DNA of 20,316 nt, taken from a virus. Positions 2,998 to 20,316 of this stretch are shown here, in pieces. The stretch covers positions 1 to 20,316 of IMG/VR virus record IMGVR_UViG_3300046534_000931; one strand, written 5' to 3'. Under the pieces are notes generated by a model. It was not told where the DNA came from. It ran no database searches and was given only the letters and a program-made list of their open reading frames with translations. Position 1 is the stretch's first letter. The number at the start of each line of letters is the position of its first letter. Made by a program: the position numbers and the translations under genes.

Positions 2998-4164
2998 CTA
3001 TGCAGGAACGTAATTATATGTAGCTCTGTCATCCCAAATCTTAACAAATGCTGTGTCGTTATCGGCCCAGATTACATCTAGATCGTCAGCATCAACACCA
3101 GTCTTTTCGTCAAGTCTCTTGATACGCCACACAGCATCACTTACACCGCCCGACCCAGGTATGACTTCCCCGATATAGGTAAAATCGCCGTCCTTATCAA
3201 CCAATCTGTTTGTTTGTGCTTCCAAATCGCCCTTCAACCTGTCTAGTATTGCATTAAAATCTTCAGATACAAATTTCTTCTTATCCGCATTATATATTAG
3301 AATAGAATCGCCTGTTAAAAGGTTTCTAGGTTTCATCTCAACATCACGATTATCCATGATTGCGTATGAACCGCCACCGCCACCGCCGATATTCTGTGCG
3401 TTGGCCTTAGTCAATTTATTCTTATAATCATTAACACCATGAATAACCACGGCATTAACTTCCTTTTTGAGACCATCAAAGTTGATTCCATTCAACTTAC
3501 TTAATTCGTTAAACTGGTTTTCCATATTCTTGCTGAATACACTAACCGACTTATCAATTTCCTTATTCTTGTCTTTCCAATTCTTGTCTAAATGCTTGAT
3601 CGATGGAGTCTTTCCATCAAGACCTTTTTGTCCTGTTGAACCTTTGGGTCCTGACTTTCCATTTTTTCCGTCAGCACCAGATTTACCATCTTTTCCATCG
3701 TCACCATTGTTTCCGTCAACTCCATTCTTCCCTTGAATTCCGGTAGCACCTTTCTCACCAGTATCACCTTTCTCACCAGATTTTCCAGTGAATCCAACAG
3801 AACCTGTGAATCCTCGATCACCTTGAATTCCTTGAATGCCCTGCTCACCGGTGTCTCCTTTATCACCCTTTTCCTCTGTATCTCCCTTTTCACCCTGAAT
3901 ACCCATCAGACCTTGTTCGCCTAACAGTCCTGGTGCGCCCTTAGCGCCGTTATCTCCTTTAACTCCATCGATGCCATTGATACCGTCTTTACCGTCTTTA
4001 CCGTCAGCACCAGCATTTCCCTGCTTTCCTTCAATGATCGTGGAAGGAACGGCTAAATCGGCACTGAATCTTAGTGACTCTTCGAATTTTTCATCAATCT
4101 CTTTTCGAAGTTTCTTGACAATCGCAACAACAAAGGTATTGGAGAACATTTCATTAATGTTCAT
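2998..4164 (-). CDS. Collagen-like virion protein with C-terminal attachment domain
   Basis: This is 388 residues from the ATG at 4164, preceded six bases upstream by a GAGG ribosome binding site. A TTG at 4176 would add four residues but would overlap that site. Residues 1-45 form a short helical, coiled-coil-like N-terminus. Residues 46-186 are 47 consecutive Gly-X-Y triplets with one glycine replaced by glutamate at residue 97. Residues about 190-260 are charged and probably helical, and a six-glycine linker follows at 260-265. The C-terminus (DGDFTYIGEV ... VWRIKR ... FVKIWDDRATYNY) matches a domain seen in many marine phage structural proteins. The portal stop is one base upstream, so the two are translationally linked. 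Gly-X-Y tracts in phages form trimeric triple-helical stalks. A fibre or head/neck-appendage role is inferred. Confidence 0.85.
   Translation of the reverse strand: MNINEMFSNTFVVAIVKKLRKEIDEKFEESLRFSADLAVPSTIIEGKQGNAGADGKDGKDGINGIDGVKGDNGAKGAPGLLGEQGLMGIQGEKGDTEEKGDKGDTGEQGIQGIQGDRGFTGSVGFTGKSGEKGDTGEKGATGIQGKNGVDGNNGDDGKDGKSGADGKNGKSGPKGSTGQKGLDGKTPSIKHLDKNWKDKNKEIDKSVSVFSKNMENQFNELSKLNGINFDGLKKEVNAVVIHGVNDYKNKLTKANAQNIGGGGGGSYAIMDNRDVEMKPRNLLTGDSILIYNADKKKFVSEDFNAILDRLKGDLEAQTNRLVDKDGDFTYIGEVIPGSGGVSDAVWRIKRLDEKTGVDADDLDVIWADNDTAFVKIWDDRATYNYVPA
3607..4029 (-). repeat. Collagen-like Gly-X-Y tract (47 triplets)
   Basis: Glycine falls at every third residue from 46 to 184 of the encoded protein, except residue 97, where a GAG codon (3874-3876) gives glutamate. 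X and Y positions are rich in Lys, Asp, Glu and Asn (GKDG, GEKGDTG units), as in bacterial and phage collagens that are stabilised by charge pairs and lack hydroxyproline. Confidence 0.9.
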
Positions 4165-4165
4165 A

Positions 4166-5797
4166 TCAATCCTCAAGTATTTTCGTCATTGCTTCCATTA
4201 GTTTAGATTCAGTGGCACTAATTTGTATATCAACAGGTGCTTCAGGTTCTATAGGTGCAATATCAACAACATCTACCTTTTCATCAATCTCATCGCCATC
4301 GTCTTCTAGATCAGCCGCGGCCTTCTCAGTTTCAATTTGCTTAATGATTTCTTCAATTTCTTCATCGCCCTGCATAAGGATATTCTTACGAACCCATTCG
4401 GCAGAGTAATAACGTCCAACGTAATCATCAACTTCACGAAGGGTAAGGATTCTTTCGCGGAGCAATTCCGCGTTCTTCATTTCCGCGAAGTGGGAATCCT
4501 GAATAAAGTCGATTGAAATGTCATGTTTAATTTCTGCCCACTCTTCCTCATTTACAATACCTTTCAGTATCAACTGAGTGTGTAGCATATCGATGAACAG
4601 ATTTGAGAACTTCTTGCGTAGTCGACTTATGAACTTTTGGAACTTAAGTTCTTCTCGAGTTGTTTCGCTTGCACGACCCAACGATATCATGCTTTGACTT
4701 TCAGTATCGAGACGTGATACAGGTACAGTCAATGATTTGTATAACTTCTTTTGGAAGTATACGATATCATCAATTTGACCTAGGTTATCGCCGCCTGGGA
4801 GAGTAGAGATTTCAGTTCCTCGACCACCTTCGCGTCTTGGCAACCAGAAATCTTCAAGCATAGACATATGTTTGTTATTGTCTTTGAGTTCACCAGTTGA
4901 AGCGTCATAAACCATTTTGTTTTTATAACGGGCCATGATGTTTCGTAGATATTCTTCGGCTTTGCCTTTTGGAAGGTTACCAACGTCGATATAGAATATA
5001 CGTCTTTCAGGTGCGCGAGACATACGATACACAACCAAACTATCTTCCATCATTCGTAACTGGTTACAAGGTTTGATTGCTTTGTGTAAGTGAGATAGAA
5101 CCTGTGTTCTGGTTGGGTCGAATAATCCCGAGGTTACATATGTAATAGAATCAGGTGCTATTTTTAAACCGGTGCTTGATGCCATGCCGATTCCACCGAT
5201 TCCTTGTTTTTCATAGATATAGAATTCATTTGTGCCTGTAATAACTTCAGCACCACTGGCAGGGTCAGTGCCCTTTATGACTTCCTTTACCTTTCGTATT
5301 TTAGTTGCATCGATTGGACGTACTTCAATCAAACCCTTCTTTGGGTTCTTGTCATCGATTATTTTGTGATAGTATAAACGACCATCGACGTACCAACGGC
5401 GGAATATATCATGCCCTTGAAAGTTCATATTGAGCAATTCGCCAATATATTCGAATTCGTCTCTAATTAGTTTTTTGATTCGATCTGGTTGTTCAAGATC
5501 ATCAAGCACGATATCAACAGGTGATGAAGTATCGTCTGAAACGATTGCTTCATTTATGATATCGTCAATTGCCATGTCGCATTCAGCATGCATTGCAACA
5601 TTGCGATATTTGAGTATTAAGTCTTTATCATTCTCGGCTTTACCACCGTCCTGATCTAAATAAGCACCGTAATGCCCACCGGCATCGACAACATAACCGC
5701 CATCGTCATCACTTAACGCGGGTACAAAAGATGGATTTTCCTTTTCAGGTTTCTTCCCTTTCTTTACTATTTCAAATCCAAAAATGTCAATTGCCAT
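4166..5797 (-). CDS. gp20: Portal vertex protein (T4 gp20-like)
   Basis: This is 543 residues, close to T4 gp20 (524). The portal forms the dodecameric ring at the special head vertex through which DNA is packaged and ejected, and it docks the gp17 motor and then the neck. The N-terminus (MAIDIFGFEIVKKGKK) is typical of marine T4-like portals. The conserved core includes NVAMHAECDMAIDDIINEAI, MSRAPERRIFYIDVGNLPKGKAEEYL and the SRLDTESQSM / LGRASETTREELKF region. The C-terminus is acidic with clustered Glu and Asp. The ATG at 5797 follows a GAGG ribosome binding site and has a late promoter and a UUCG hairpin upstream. Its TGA lies one base from the collagen-like gene's ATG. In T4, genes 67, 68, 21, 22 and 23 follow gene 20; here an adhesin cassette follows instead. 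Confidence 0.96.
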   Translation of the reverse strand: MAIDIFGFEIVKKGKKPEKENPSFVPALSDDDGGYVVDAGGHYGAYLDQDGGKAENDKDLILKYRNVAMHAECDMAIDDIINEAIVSDDTSSPVDIVLDDLEQPDRIKKLIRDEFEYIGELLNMNFQGHDIFRRWYVDGRLYYHKIIDDKNPKKGLIEVRPIDATKIRKVKEVIKGTDPASGAEVITGTNEFYIYEKQGIGGIGMASSTGLKIAPDSITYVTSGLFDPTRTQVLSHLHKAIKPCNQLRMMEDSLVVYRMSRAPERRIFYIDVGNLPKGKAEEYLRNIMARYKNKMVYDASTGELKDNNKHMSMLEDFWLPRREGGRGTEISTLPGGDNLGQIDDIVYFQKKLYKSLTVPVSRLDTESQSMISLGRASETTREELKFQKFISRLRKKFSNLFIDMLHTQLILKGIVNEEEWAEIKHDISIDFIQDSHFAEMKNAELLRERILTLREVDDYVGRYYSAEWVRKNILMQGDEEIEEIIKQIETEKAAADLEDDGDEIDEKVDVVDIAPIEPEAPVDIQISATESKLMEAMTKILED

Positions 5798-18707: not shown

Positions 18708-19070
18708 TTAATCGTCTTTAAATAACCATGACACTACCATAATGTCACCGGCTGATAGTTTAGCATCGGAACCTAAGTCTTCAATATTCAACTTCTTAAT
18801 ATCAATTTCGATTTCGGAAGATAATAATTCATTAAACTTAGATTGGAATTCTTCTTTGTTTTCTTCCAATACGACAATAGAGCCTTCATTGTCTTCATCG
18901 GGTGCACCATATTTAGTAAACAAAGCCATTCTCTTCTCTGAGAAGAGTTTGAATACTTCGTTAATTTCAGTTACGTTTTTCGCCAATTTCACCGCACTAG
19001 CTAAAGGTAGGTCAAAAGCGACCATTTTTTCAAGGATAGGTTGTGCGTTTACAATTTCAATAGTTTTCAT
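18708..19070 (-). CDS. DUF1617-like phage protein
   Basis: This is 120 residues. It opens MKTIEIVNAQPILEKMVAFDLPLASAVKLAKNVTEINEVFKLFSEKRMALFTKYGAPDEDN and continues with EEFQSKFNELLSSEIEIDIKKL. This is the pattern of DUF1617, a small helical phage family of unknown function that occurs among tail genes. It is mostly helical and charged. The ATG at 19070 has only a weak GAG-type ribosome binding site, but a late promoter lies 41 bases upstream, so it is the first gene of its unit. The family assignment is by recalled sequence pattern; a profile search would settle it. Confidence 0.78.
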   Translation of the reverse strand: MKTIEIVNAQPILEKMVAFDLPLASAVKLAKNVTEINEVFKLFSEKRMALFTKYGAPDEDNEGSIVVLEENKEEFQSKFNELLSSEIEIDIKKLNIEDLGSDAKLSAGDIMVVSWLFKDD

Positions 19071-19110: not shown

Positions 19111-19118
19111 TATTTATA
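19111..19118 (-). promoter_or_regulatory. T4-type late promoter for the DUF1617-like/repetitive fibre unit
   Basis: This is an exact minus-strand TATAAATA octamer 41 bases upstream of the ATG at 19070. It is directly preceded, in transcription direction, by a perfect 14-bp palindrome at 19119-19132. It faces away from the sigma-70 promoter at 19241-19269. Confidence 0.78.
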
Positions 19119-19176: not shown

Positions 19177-19224
19177 CGACATAATGTCGCAAACTGATCA
19201 CTTTATGTCGCGGCCTGAACATAA
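19177..19224. promoter_or_regulatory. Operator-like cluster of ACATAA/TTATGT half-sites upstream of the plus-strand gene
   Basis: CGACAT-A-ATGTCG at 19177-19189 is a dyad of six-base arms. TTATGT at 19203-19208 and ACATAA at 19219-19224 form a second, spaced dyad. ATGTCGC is repeated directly at 19184 and 19205, 21 bases apart (two helical turns), and the following bases also match well. The cluster ends 16 bases before the TTGACA box, a position where regulators commonly act. No regulator gene is in the window. Confidence 0.5.
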
Positions 19225-19240
19225 TATATGAAATCAGTTG

Positions 19241-19269
19241 TTGACAAACTGCTAATAACCATGTAAAAT
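19241..19269 (+). promoter_or_regulatory. Consensus sigma-70 promoter for the exported-protein gene
   Basis: TTGACA at 19241-19246, a 17-base spacer and TAAAAT at 19264-19269 make a near-perfect bacterial housekeeping promoter. The expected start is about 19276, followed by a GGAG ribosome binding site and an ATG at 19314. It is unlike the late promoters in the window and would be read by unmodified host polymerase. Confidence 0.8.
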
Positions 19270-19313
19270 GATCGTATGAATTGGAAAAACCATTGGAACT
19301 TGGAGATCTTATT

Positions 19314-19661
19314 ATGAATATTAAAATGTTATTAGTTGGAGCGGTTTTGTTGGTTTCTGGTGCAGCACAAGCAGAGACGAACTGGTACAGAGTAACGGCA
19401 AACAGTTTGTTGTTTGTCGATATGTTGCAAACTGTAGAGATATCAAAAAACGAGAGATTCCATGAGAAAAACCCAATACTAGGTACACAACCCACAGAGC
19501 GAGAAGTGTACCAATATTTCGCGATGGCGACCTTGTTGGTTAACCTTATCGGTGAATCGATTCCTGATGAACACAGAGACAACTTCTATATAGCAACAGC
19601 AGTGGTTCAATCTAAAGTCGTGTTTGAGAATATCCAACTTGGAGTTAAGATTAAGTTTTAA
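19314..19661 (+). CDS. Small exported protein of unknown function (moron-like)
   Basis: This is 115 residues from the ATG at 19314, with a GGAG ribosome binding site eight bases upstream. An in-frame TTG at 19281 lies too near the predicted transcription start and lacks a site. Residues 1-20 are a clear signal peptide: Lys at 4, a hydrophobic LLVGAVLLVSG core, and an AQA cleavage site before Glu21. The mature protein is about 95 residues. It contains LLFVDMLQTVEISKN, a YHE/FHEKNPILGTQPTEREVYQYFA segment and a mildly hydrophobic stretch near 68-80. I recall similar short proteins in other phages, with a 'D..QT..i......e.NPilG..P....v..YF' pattern, but no assigned function. It is the only plus-strand gene and has its own host-type promoter. 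A role in altering the host envelope, such as superinfection exclusion, is inference. Confidence 0.82.
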   Translation: MNIKMLLVGAVLLVSGAAQAETNWYRVTANSLLFVDMLQTVEISKNERFHEKNPILGTQPTEREVYQYFAMATLLVNLIGESIPDEHRDNFYIATAVVQSKVVFENIQLGVKIKF

Positions 19662-19675
19662 TTGCGTATGCCATA

Positions 19676-20316
19676 TTAGTCTATGTACTGGATAGTAACC
19701 CAGCCTCGAACACCCCCAGGTGCTGTCACATATGAAGATGAATCGAATTGTCCTCCGTCTCCTCTCCTTAAACCTATTGAAGTTGAATCCCAGAATATAC
19801 CATGATTTGATGTTGTTTCTGTGTGGTCTTGAAAACCAAGATCATGAGCCTGACTATTCGCATCATTTCTAATAGTCGCAACTACTGTCGTTATTTTTGA
19901 GTAAGTCAGGCCGTGTACAACTGAAAAATCCGGATTGGAGCTCATATTCCACGCGCCGATATTAAGAAACCTAGTATTCAGTTTTATATTACTGTTTACT
20001 GCTCCAGAGGTTATCGTGCCTGCAAAAGTGGCGTTCTGAGATGCATCTAGGGTCAGTGCATCTGTAGCACCATTAGTTCTAAACCGGATGTCAATAGGTG
20101 AGTCCATGTACACCTTATCATCACTAAATAATTGCAGCAACGTAAAAGTTGTATTATCGTTTTTCTTTGACTGGAACGTTCCCCCACTCGCGACGTTCTC
20201 TAATAATATGGAACCACCAGCAGCTACCCCACCAACAAAAGTGGCATTTTGTGATGCGTCTAACGTCAGTGCTGTGGTTGATCCGTCTGTTCCGAATACT
20301 AAATATCCATTATCTC
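19676..20316 (-). CDS. Second fibre-like protein, C-terminal part (5' end beyond window edge)
   Basis: The frame is open from the right edge (first complete codon ends at 20314) to a TAA at 19676-19678, giving 212 visible residues; no start is in the window. The visible part begins with shaft repeats closely related to the 1046-residue fibre: TTALTLDASQNATFVGG, then QSKKNDNTTFTLLQLFSDDKVYMDSPIDIRFRTNG, then ALTLDASQNATFAGTI. It ends with a different tip domain, NIGAWNMSSNPDFSVVHGL ... ATIRNDA ... GLRRGDGGQFDS ... GVRGWVTIQYID. I recognise this as a widespread C-terminal domain of phage and bacterial surface proteins. It converges with the exported-protein gene, with only 14 bases between the stops. 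It is probably an alternative or additional host-contact fibre with a swapped tip. Confidence 0.85.
   Translation of the reverse strand, partial: DNGYLVFGTDGSTTALTLDASQNATFVGGVAAGGSILLENVASGGTFQSKKNDNTTFTLLQLFSDDKVYMDSPIDIRFRTNGATDALTLDASQNATFAGTITSGAVNSNIKLNTRFLNIGAWNMSSNPDFSVVHGLTYSKITTVVATIRNDANSQAHDLGFQDHTETTSNHGIFWDSTSIGLRRGDGGQFDSSSYVTAPGGVRGWVTIQYID
20232..20292 (-). repeat. 61-bp near-identical repeat, copy 2 (right-edge fibre gene)
   Basis: It is identical to 13557-13617 except for two transitions (59 of 61). A more diverged copy lies at about 20022-20064 in the same gene. The flanking KKND...LQLFSDD segment is also shared with the 1046-residue fibre, but at lower identity. Confidence 0.85.

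Follow-up and report, generated by a model that had tools for sequence, protein, structure and literature searches.

A 20,316-base virus record, IMG/VR IMGVR_UViG_3300046534_000931, which was analysed over its whole length (the window), carries a moron, P0001, an extra gene oriented opposite to the late fibre operon of a T4-like phage. As judged from sequence comparison, P0001 belongs to an undescribed and widespread family of small exported proteins, whose members come from one Erythrobacter plasmid and from over 100 contigs of uncultivated phages. The gene, its promoter match, its export signal, its family, its predicted fold, its C-terminal tail resembling the β-signal by which bacteria recognise outer-membrane proteins (OMPs) and its convergent position beside a fibre gene are near certain. 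As to function we favor, tentatively and by analogy with Llp of phage T5 (probability about 0.3), an interference with the assembly or display of OMPs that would lead to superinfection exclusion at the outer membrane.

The gene and its transcriptional setting

The minus strand of the window carries T4-type late genes, namely those for terminase, sheath, tube, portal, neck proteins and fibres. The nearest annotated record for the terminase is that of phage C48C1 (Kyanoviridae; 65% identical), and the virus is a T4-like (Kyanoviridae-like) phage. Its host is likely Gram-negative because the relatives of its portal protein include those of Methylophilales and cyanobacterial myophages. A collagen-like fibre protein with GXX repeats is encoded on the minus strand at 2998–4176, between the portal gene and a structural gene (1672–2904).

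As had been predicted, P0001 is the sole plus-strand gene: when the list of open reading frames was read, no other plausible one was found in the window, and the other credible genes all lie on the minus strand. That the reading frame is a real gene follows from the existence of more than 100 diverged homologues. The original prediction placed it between minus-strand late fibre genes, which is correct for the late module and for the right neighbour, a fibre gene, but not for the left neighbours, which are a conserved protein (phrog_1401) and, instead of a fibre, a fibre-assembly-like protein (Table 1).

Table 1. Positions in the window of P0001, its parts and the elements around it.
Feature	Position	Strand	Remarks
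P0001 gene (CDS)	19314..19661 including stop	+	115 aa; family D..QT...E.NP[IL]LG.HP; homologues
Signal peptide MNIKMLLVGAVLLVSGAAQA, residues 1–20	19314..19373	+	predicted cut between AQA and E; hydrophobic core 5–15
Family motif HEKNPILGTQP, residues 50–60	19461..19493	+	alignment of 79 sequences
β-signal-like strand QLGVKIKF, residues 108–115	19635..19658	+	consensus from PMC10945584
Sigma-70-type promoter TTGACA-17-TAAAAT	TTGACA 19241–19246, TAAAAT 19264–19269	+	11/12 consensus match
Shine-Dalgarno GGAG	19302–19305	+	8 nt upstream of ATG, read directly
Two tandem 21-nt repeats (71% alike), palindrome CGACATAATGTCG at upstream edge	19179..19220	+	just upstream of promoter
T4-type late promoter TATAAATA	19111..19118	−	serves divergent gene 18708–19070
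Divergent late gene, left of P0001	18708..19070	−	120 aa; phrog_1401, conserved, function unknown
Convergent fibre gene, C-terminal part	19676..20314	−	open at window edge

Direct reading of the letters bore out the proposed sigma-70-type promoter and the ribosome binding site of the gene. The promoter is one of only two 11/12 matches in the window; when the 110 nt preceding the P0001 start were shuffled, 0.3% of the shuffled sequences scored as well (P = 0.003). It should be noted that pairs of the form TTGACA-N15-19-TANNNT occur once in the window versus 2.4 times expected by chance; the weight of the promoter therefore rests on its position, the bare count being unremarkable. The tandem repeat with CGACATAATGTCG just upstream is a possible operator and is absent from every other locus that was fetched.

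The motif TATAAATA, the core of the T4 late promoter, is present in six copies in the window (at 2984, 5853, 8160, 12810, 16717 and 19111), all on the minus strand and each roughly 30–80 nt 5′ of a minus-strand gene. Only 2.0 copies were expected, and six were reached in 1 of 100 shuffles. These sites mark the late transcription units. Since P0001 lies on the plus strand and has no such promoter of its own, the late programme and P0001 face opposite ways, and the predicted moron layout holds at this locus with respect to the promoter (a sequence match only) and to the reverse orientation. A terminator of its own was not found: no terminator-like site is listed near 19661, and the downstream sequence folds no better than shuffles (z = −0.2). 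The corresponding stretch of C48C1 contains same-strand genes only and no homologue of P0001, its fibre region being rearranged so that there is no clean empty site; neither was a homologue found elsewhere in the annotated collection holding C48C1.

A sister contig, L002, covers only the end of the P0001 gene, which is identical there, and encodes a 742-aa fibre with a diverged tip. The fibre tips (19676–19990 versus 122–600 of L002) differ, whereas the flanking DNA on both sides, the end of the plus-strand gene and the upstream fibre part, is identical; this points to a recent replacement of the tip. The stop codons of the two convergent genes overlap in L002.

The family and the neighbourhoods of its members

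P0001 matched nothing in profile and sequence searches of Pfam, PHROGs, NCBIfam and PDB sequences. The motif HE.NPILG..P was found in 19 IMG/VR contigs, nearly all of which encode short proteins with an export signal and the same overall layout. A relaxed motif gave at least 120 matches, and among the matches listed a hidden Markov model recognised at least about 116 distinct members. The family core reads D..QT...E.NP[IL]LG.HP...R...N: in an alignment of 79 sequences E51, N53, P54, G57 and P60 are invariant, and D36, T40, L56, H59 (Q in P0001) and N106 are nearly so. The strict motif had one match, to a non-homologous protein, in 85,000 prokaryote genomes. The designation "virus-only" was nevertheless dropped because the Erythrobacter plasmid member shows that the strict pattern misses some members. 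With six family members as queries, tblastn gave no match in isolate phages even at E = 10, a silence that may partly reflect record filtering and is not taken as absence from these phages; the sequence collections may also omit near records.

For the relatives, genes were called as greedy open reading frames, and the fibre identity of many neighbours was judged by eye. Two neighbours were called for 105 relatives; in 55 of them the family gene has the orientation of both neighbours, and in 18 it is opposed to both. Most relatives are therefore probably expressed together with late genes, and early, independent expression is not a property of the whole family; the predicted arrangement of a moron with its own promoter is supported for P0001 but not as a family rule. 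A good sigma-70 match was present in only 2 of 15 relatives with a divergent upstream neighbour. One relative, L013, repeats the arrangement of P0001: it opposes both neighbours, has TTGACA-17-TATACT upstream and lies between a fibre-like gene and genes for a holin-like protein and a peptidase-like endolysin (the last two named by eye). The homologue on the Erythrobacter plasmid opposes both neighbours as well.

In 30 of 72 relatives the gene that follows downstream is convergent, and about 16 of these 30 genes look fibre-like by eye; for three (L077, L105 and L016) there are PHROG tail-fibre matches. Lysis genes are neighbours elsewhere, for example an amidase endolysin in L010 and a lysozyme in L116, and some relatives are found amid metabolic genes (radical SAM, queuosine-type). 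In L070, L126 and L148 the family gene adjoins a queuosine-type transporter gene (VUT_1), and in the first two there is a QueE-like gene too. A conserved operon in L150, L116, L045, L050 and L130 encodes an exported protein of 250–273 aa, the family protein, an exported protein of 582–597 aa and a membrane coiled-coil protein; in L116 the lysozyme comes next. A search for conserved neighbours among the relatives revealed no single constant partner gene, which characterizes the family gene as itinerant.

Export signal, predicted fold and C-terminal tail

The signal-peptide calls were made by eye and hydropathy. Cleavage of P0001 after AQA leaves a mature part of 95 aa, in agreement with the original prediction. 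The family members carry Sec signal peptides or lipoboxes, the latter mostly without Asp at +2; a lipobox-like site is present in about one fifth of the relatives, and P0001 has no cysteine. The core helix exceeds the usual transmembrane threshold in only 13% of the members, and the mature helices of P0001 stay below it (peak 1.16). Structure prediction, which had been named as a check, was run: in the AlphaFold models P0001 and L010 share a three-helix bundle plus signal helix, followed by an unpaired tail (pLDDT 91). With helix 1 running up, helix 2 down and helix 3 up, D36, T40, the E.NPILG loop and N106 would lie at one end of the modelled bundle. No solved fold in the PDB matches P0001, and in BFVD the best structure match (E = 3.7e-6) is a viral protein without a name; phage holins in that database are weakly similar in fold.

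The C-terminus QLGVKIKF fits every defined position of the β-signal consensus of OMPs, ζ-x-G-x-x-[aromatic/hydrophobic]-x-[aromatic/hydrophobic] (PMC10945584). In the 79 sequences position −1 is aromatic in 90%, positions −3, −5 and −7 are hydrophobic in 91–94%, positions −2 and −4 are polar in 91%, and position −6 is Gly in 80%. This alternating signature was found in 63 of the 79 members and in 28 of the 37 whose identity is below 40%, and not one of 633 neighbour proteins shows it; the published consensus plus a final aromatic residue is present in 52 of 79 members versus 1 of 1320 other open reading frames of the same contigs. The tail is missing from a few exported members (L053, L069), and some members without a separate signal peptide have kept it (e.g., L118, L054). 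As additional evidence for a strand, the odd/even spacing of the residues that follow N106 was weak and was not used.

P0001 thus has the C-terminal consensus of a substrate of the BAM machine and no β-barrel domain, the model consisting of three helices. The sequence suggests that a helical protein with such an orphan β-signal acts on BAM or on outer-membrane receptors. The earlier statement that no function is readable was too weak in that it overlooked both the conserved motif and this C-terminus.

Possible functions and comparison with known systems

The mechanism that we favor is as follows. Its own host-type promoter would drive expression of P0001 early, against the late fibre operon; the small helical protein would be exported via Sec with loss of the signal peptide and would work in the periplasm on the side of the outer membrane. 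There the tail, imitating an OMP β-signal, would most likely dock on BAM or on another outer-membrane edge strand and hinder the display of new OMPs, phage receptors included, so that the infected cell would be closed to further adsorption. Such a blocker is plausible by analogy because an OmpC final-strand peptide holding the β-signal inhibits the assembly of several OMPs (PMC10945584). A general target is favored since the family is conserved across unrelated fibres. The promoter of P0001 versus the opposed late promoters, the likewise opposed genes of L013 and the Erythrobacter plasmid, the export signals, the β-signal-like tail, unpaired in both models, the relatives that converge on fibre-like genes and the precedent of T5 Llp argue for exclusion; the many co-oriented relatives, the scarcity of sigma-70 matches, the members that have only one of export signal and tail and the endolysin neighbours of some relatives argue against it. 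The more specific proposal of a BAM decoy, in which the exported helical family occupies BamA/BamD and halts OMP assembly during infection, is rather doubtful. The best-conserved residues, E.NP[IL]LG.HP together with D36, T40 and N106, are not needed by such a decoy as such and hint at a binding or catalytic site.

The main rival to exclusion is lysis or outer-membrane disruption, which is nearly as likely. P0001 would then be a lysis accessory acting at the end of infection, either disrupting the outer membrane in place of a spanin or setting the timing of lysis as an exported antiholin. The lysis genes near L010, L116 and L013, the lipoprotein versions, anchored like o-spanins, the co-orientation of most relatives with late genes and the weak likeness to holins are consistent with this. 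However, P0001 has a host-type promoter and no late promoter, there is no lysis neighbour within 20 kb, neither a coiled coil nor a spanin or holin family match was found in P0001, and its invariant polar motif sets it apart from spanins and holins.

Equally close to the favored reading in likelihood is an enzyme or binding protein of the inner membrane or periplasm resembling DUF5658 (PF18902), a membrane-protein family that includes archaeal members. DUF5658 shares D..T...E.NP and the final N in three helices with the P0001 family. In such a protein D36, T40, E51, N53 and N106 on three helices would form a polar site that modifies or binds lipid, a peptidoglycan precursor or a small molecule, and the tail would be a local structural strand. 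This would account for the invariant and nearly invariant residues, and it agrees with the radical SAM and queuosine-type genes around some relatives and with the resemblance of L129, L101 and L118 to three-helix membrane proteins. The DUF5658 profile matched 3 of 79 relatives weakly (best E = 1.1e-4) and P0001 not at all, so that the curated cut-off is not reached; this distant similarity is compatible with a possible inner-membrane site of action and counts against the favored reading. Against this reading stand the rarity of transmembrane-grade core helices, the lack of a PDB fold match and the alternating tail with its final aromatic residue, which it leaves unexplained.

That P0001 binds one specific outer-membrane receptor from the inside, without a general effect on BAM, is unlikely. 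The precedent is Llp of phage T5: its gene adjoins oad, the gene for receptor binding, and the protein, exported early, acts in the periplasm, where it blocks the receptor (PMC9586334, PMC4728585). This precedent also lends support to the earlier suggestion that an envelope product could block the adsorption of rivals. The layout beside a receptor-binding gene is llp-like, and the fibre tip has diverged from that of L002. But a blocker of one receptor would be expected to differ from fibre to fibre, whereas the family is conserved over very different phages and fibres, and the identity of the shared part of the P0001 gene across the tip swap argues against a matching to the tip. A virion or fibre accessory component, as the adjoining fibre gene might suggest, is very improbable and was rejected because of the cleavable signal peptide (or lipobox) and the orientation on the opposite strand, late promoters being absent as well.

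If the tail is a working β-signal, rivals would be shut out generally and not receptor by receptor, and a family common in uncultivated phages, yet nameless in the profile libraries searched, would provide phages with a natural inhibitor of BAM, a complex that is essential and serves as an antibiotic target as well. In the literature no paper was found on DUF5658 or on a phage-encoded BAM inhibitor.

With known systems P0001 shares some features and differs in others. Like other phage morons it has its own promoter, reverse orientation and a place between late genes; unlike them it has no detectable terminator after the gene, and most relatives are arranged otherwise. OMPs with a β-signal form a barrel, whereas the rest of P0001 is helical. 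Spanins and holins/antiholins are, like the family, small exported envelope proteins, and endolysin genes lie near some relatives. In contrast to DUF5658, signal peptides or lipoboxes and sub-threshold helices prevail among the members, and the tail is β-signal-like. The Llp proteins of T5 and BF23, lipoproteins that cause superinfection exclusion by blocking the receptor and that are unrelated to each other (PMC4728585), are, as P0001, small exported phage proteins encoded beside a receptor-binding gene. P0001 differs from them in having a signal peptide without a lipobox and in being, over its 95 aa, all-helical with the conserved E.NPILG motif; no homology to them was found, and its family recurs beside unrelated fibres.
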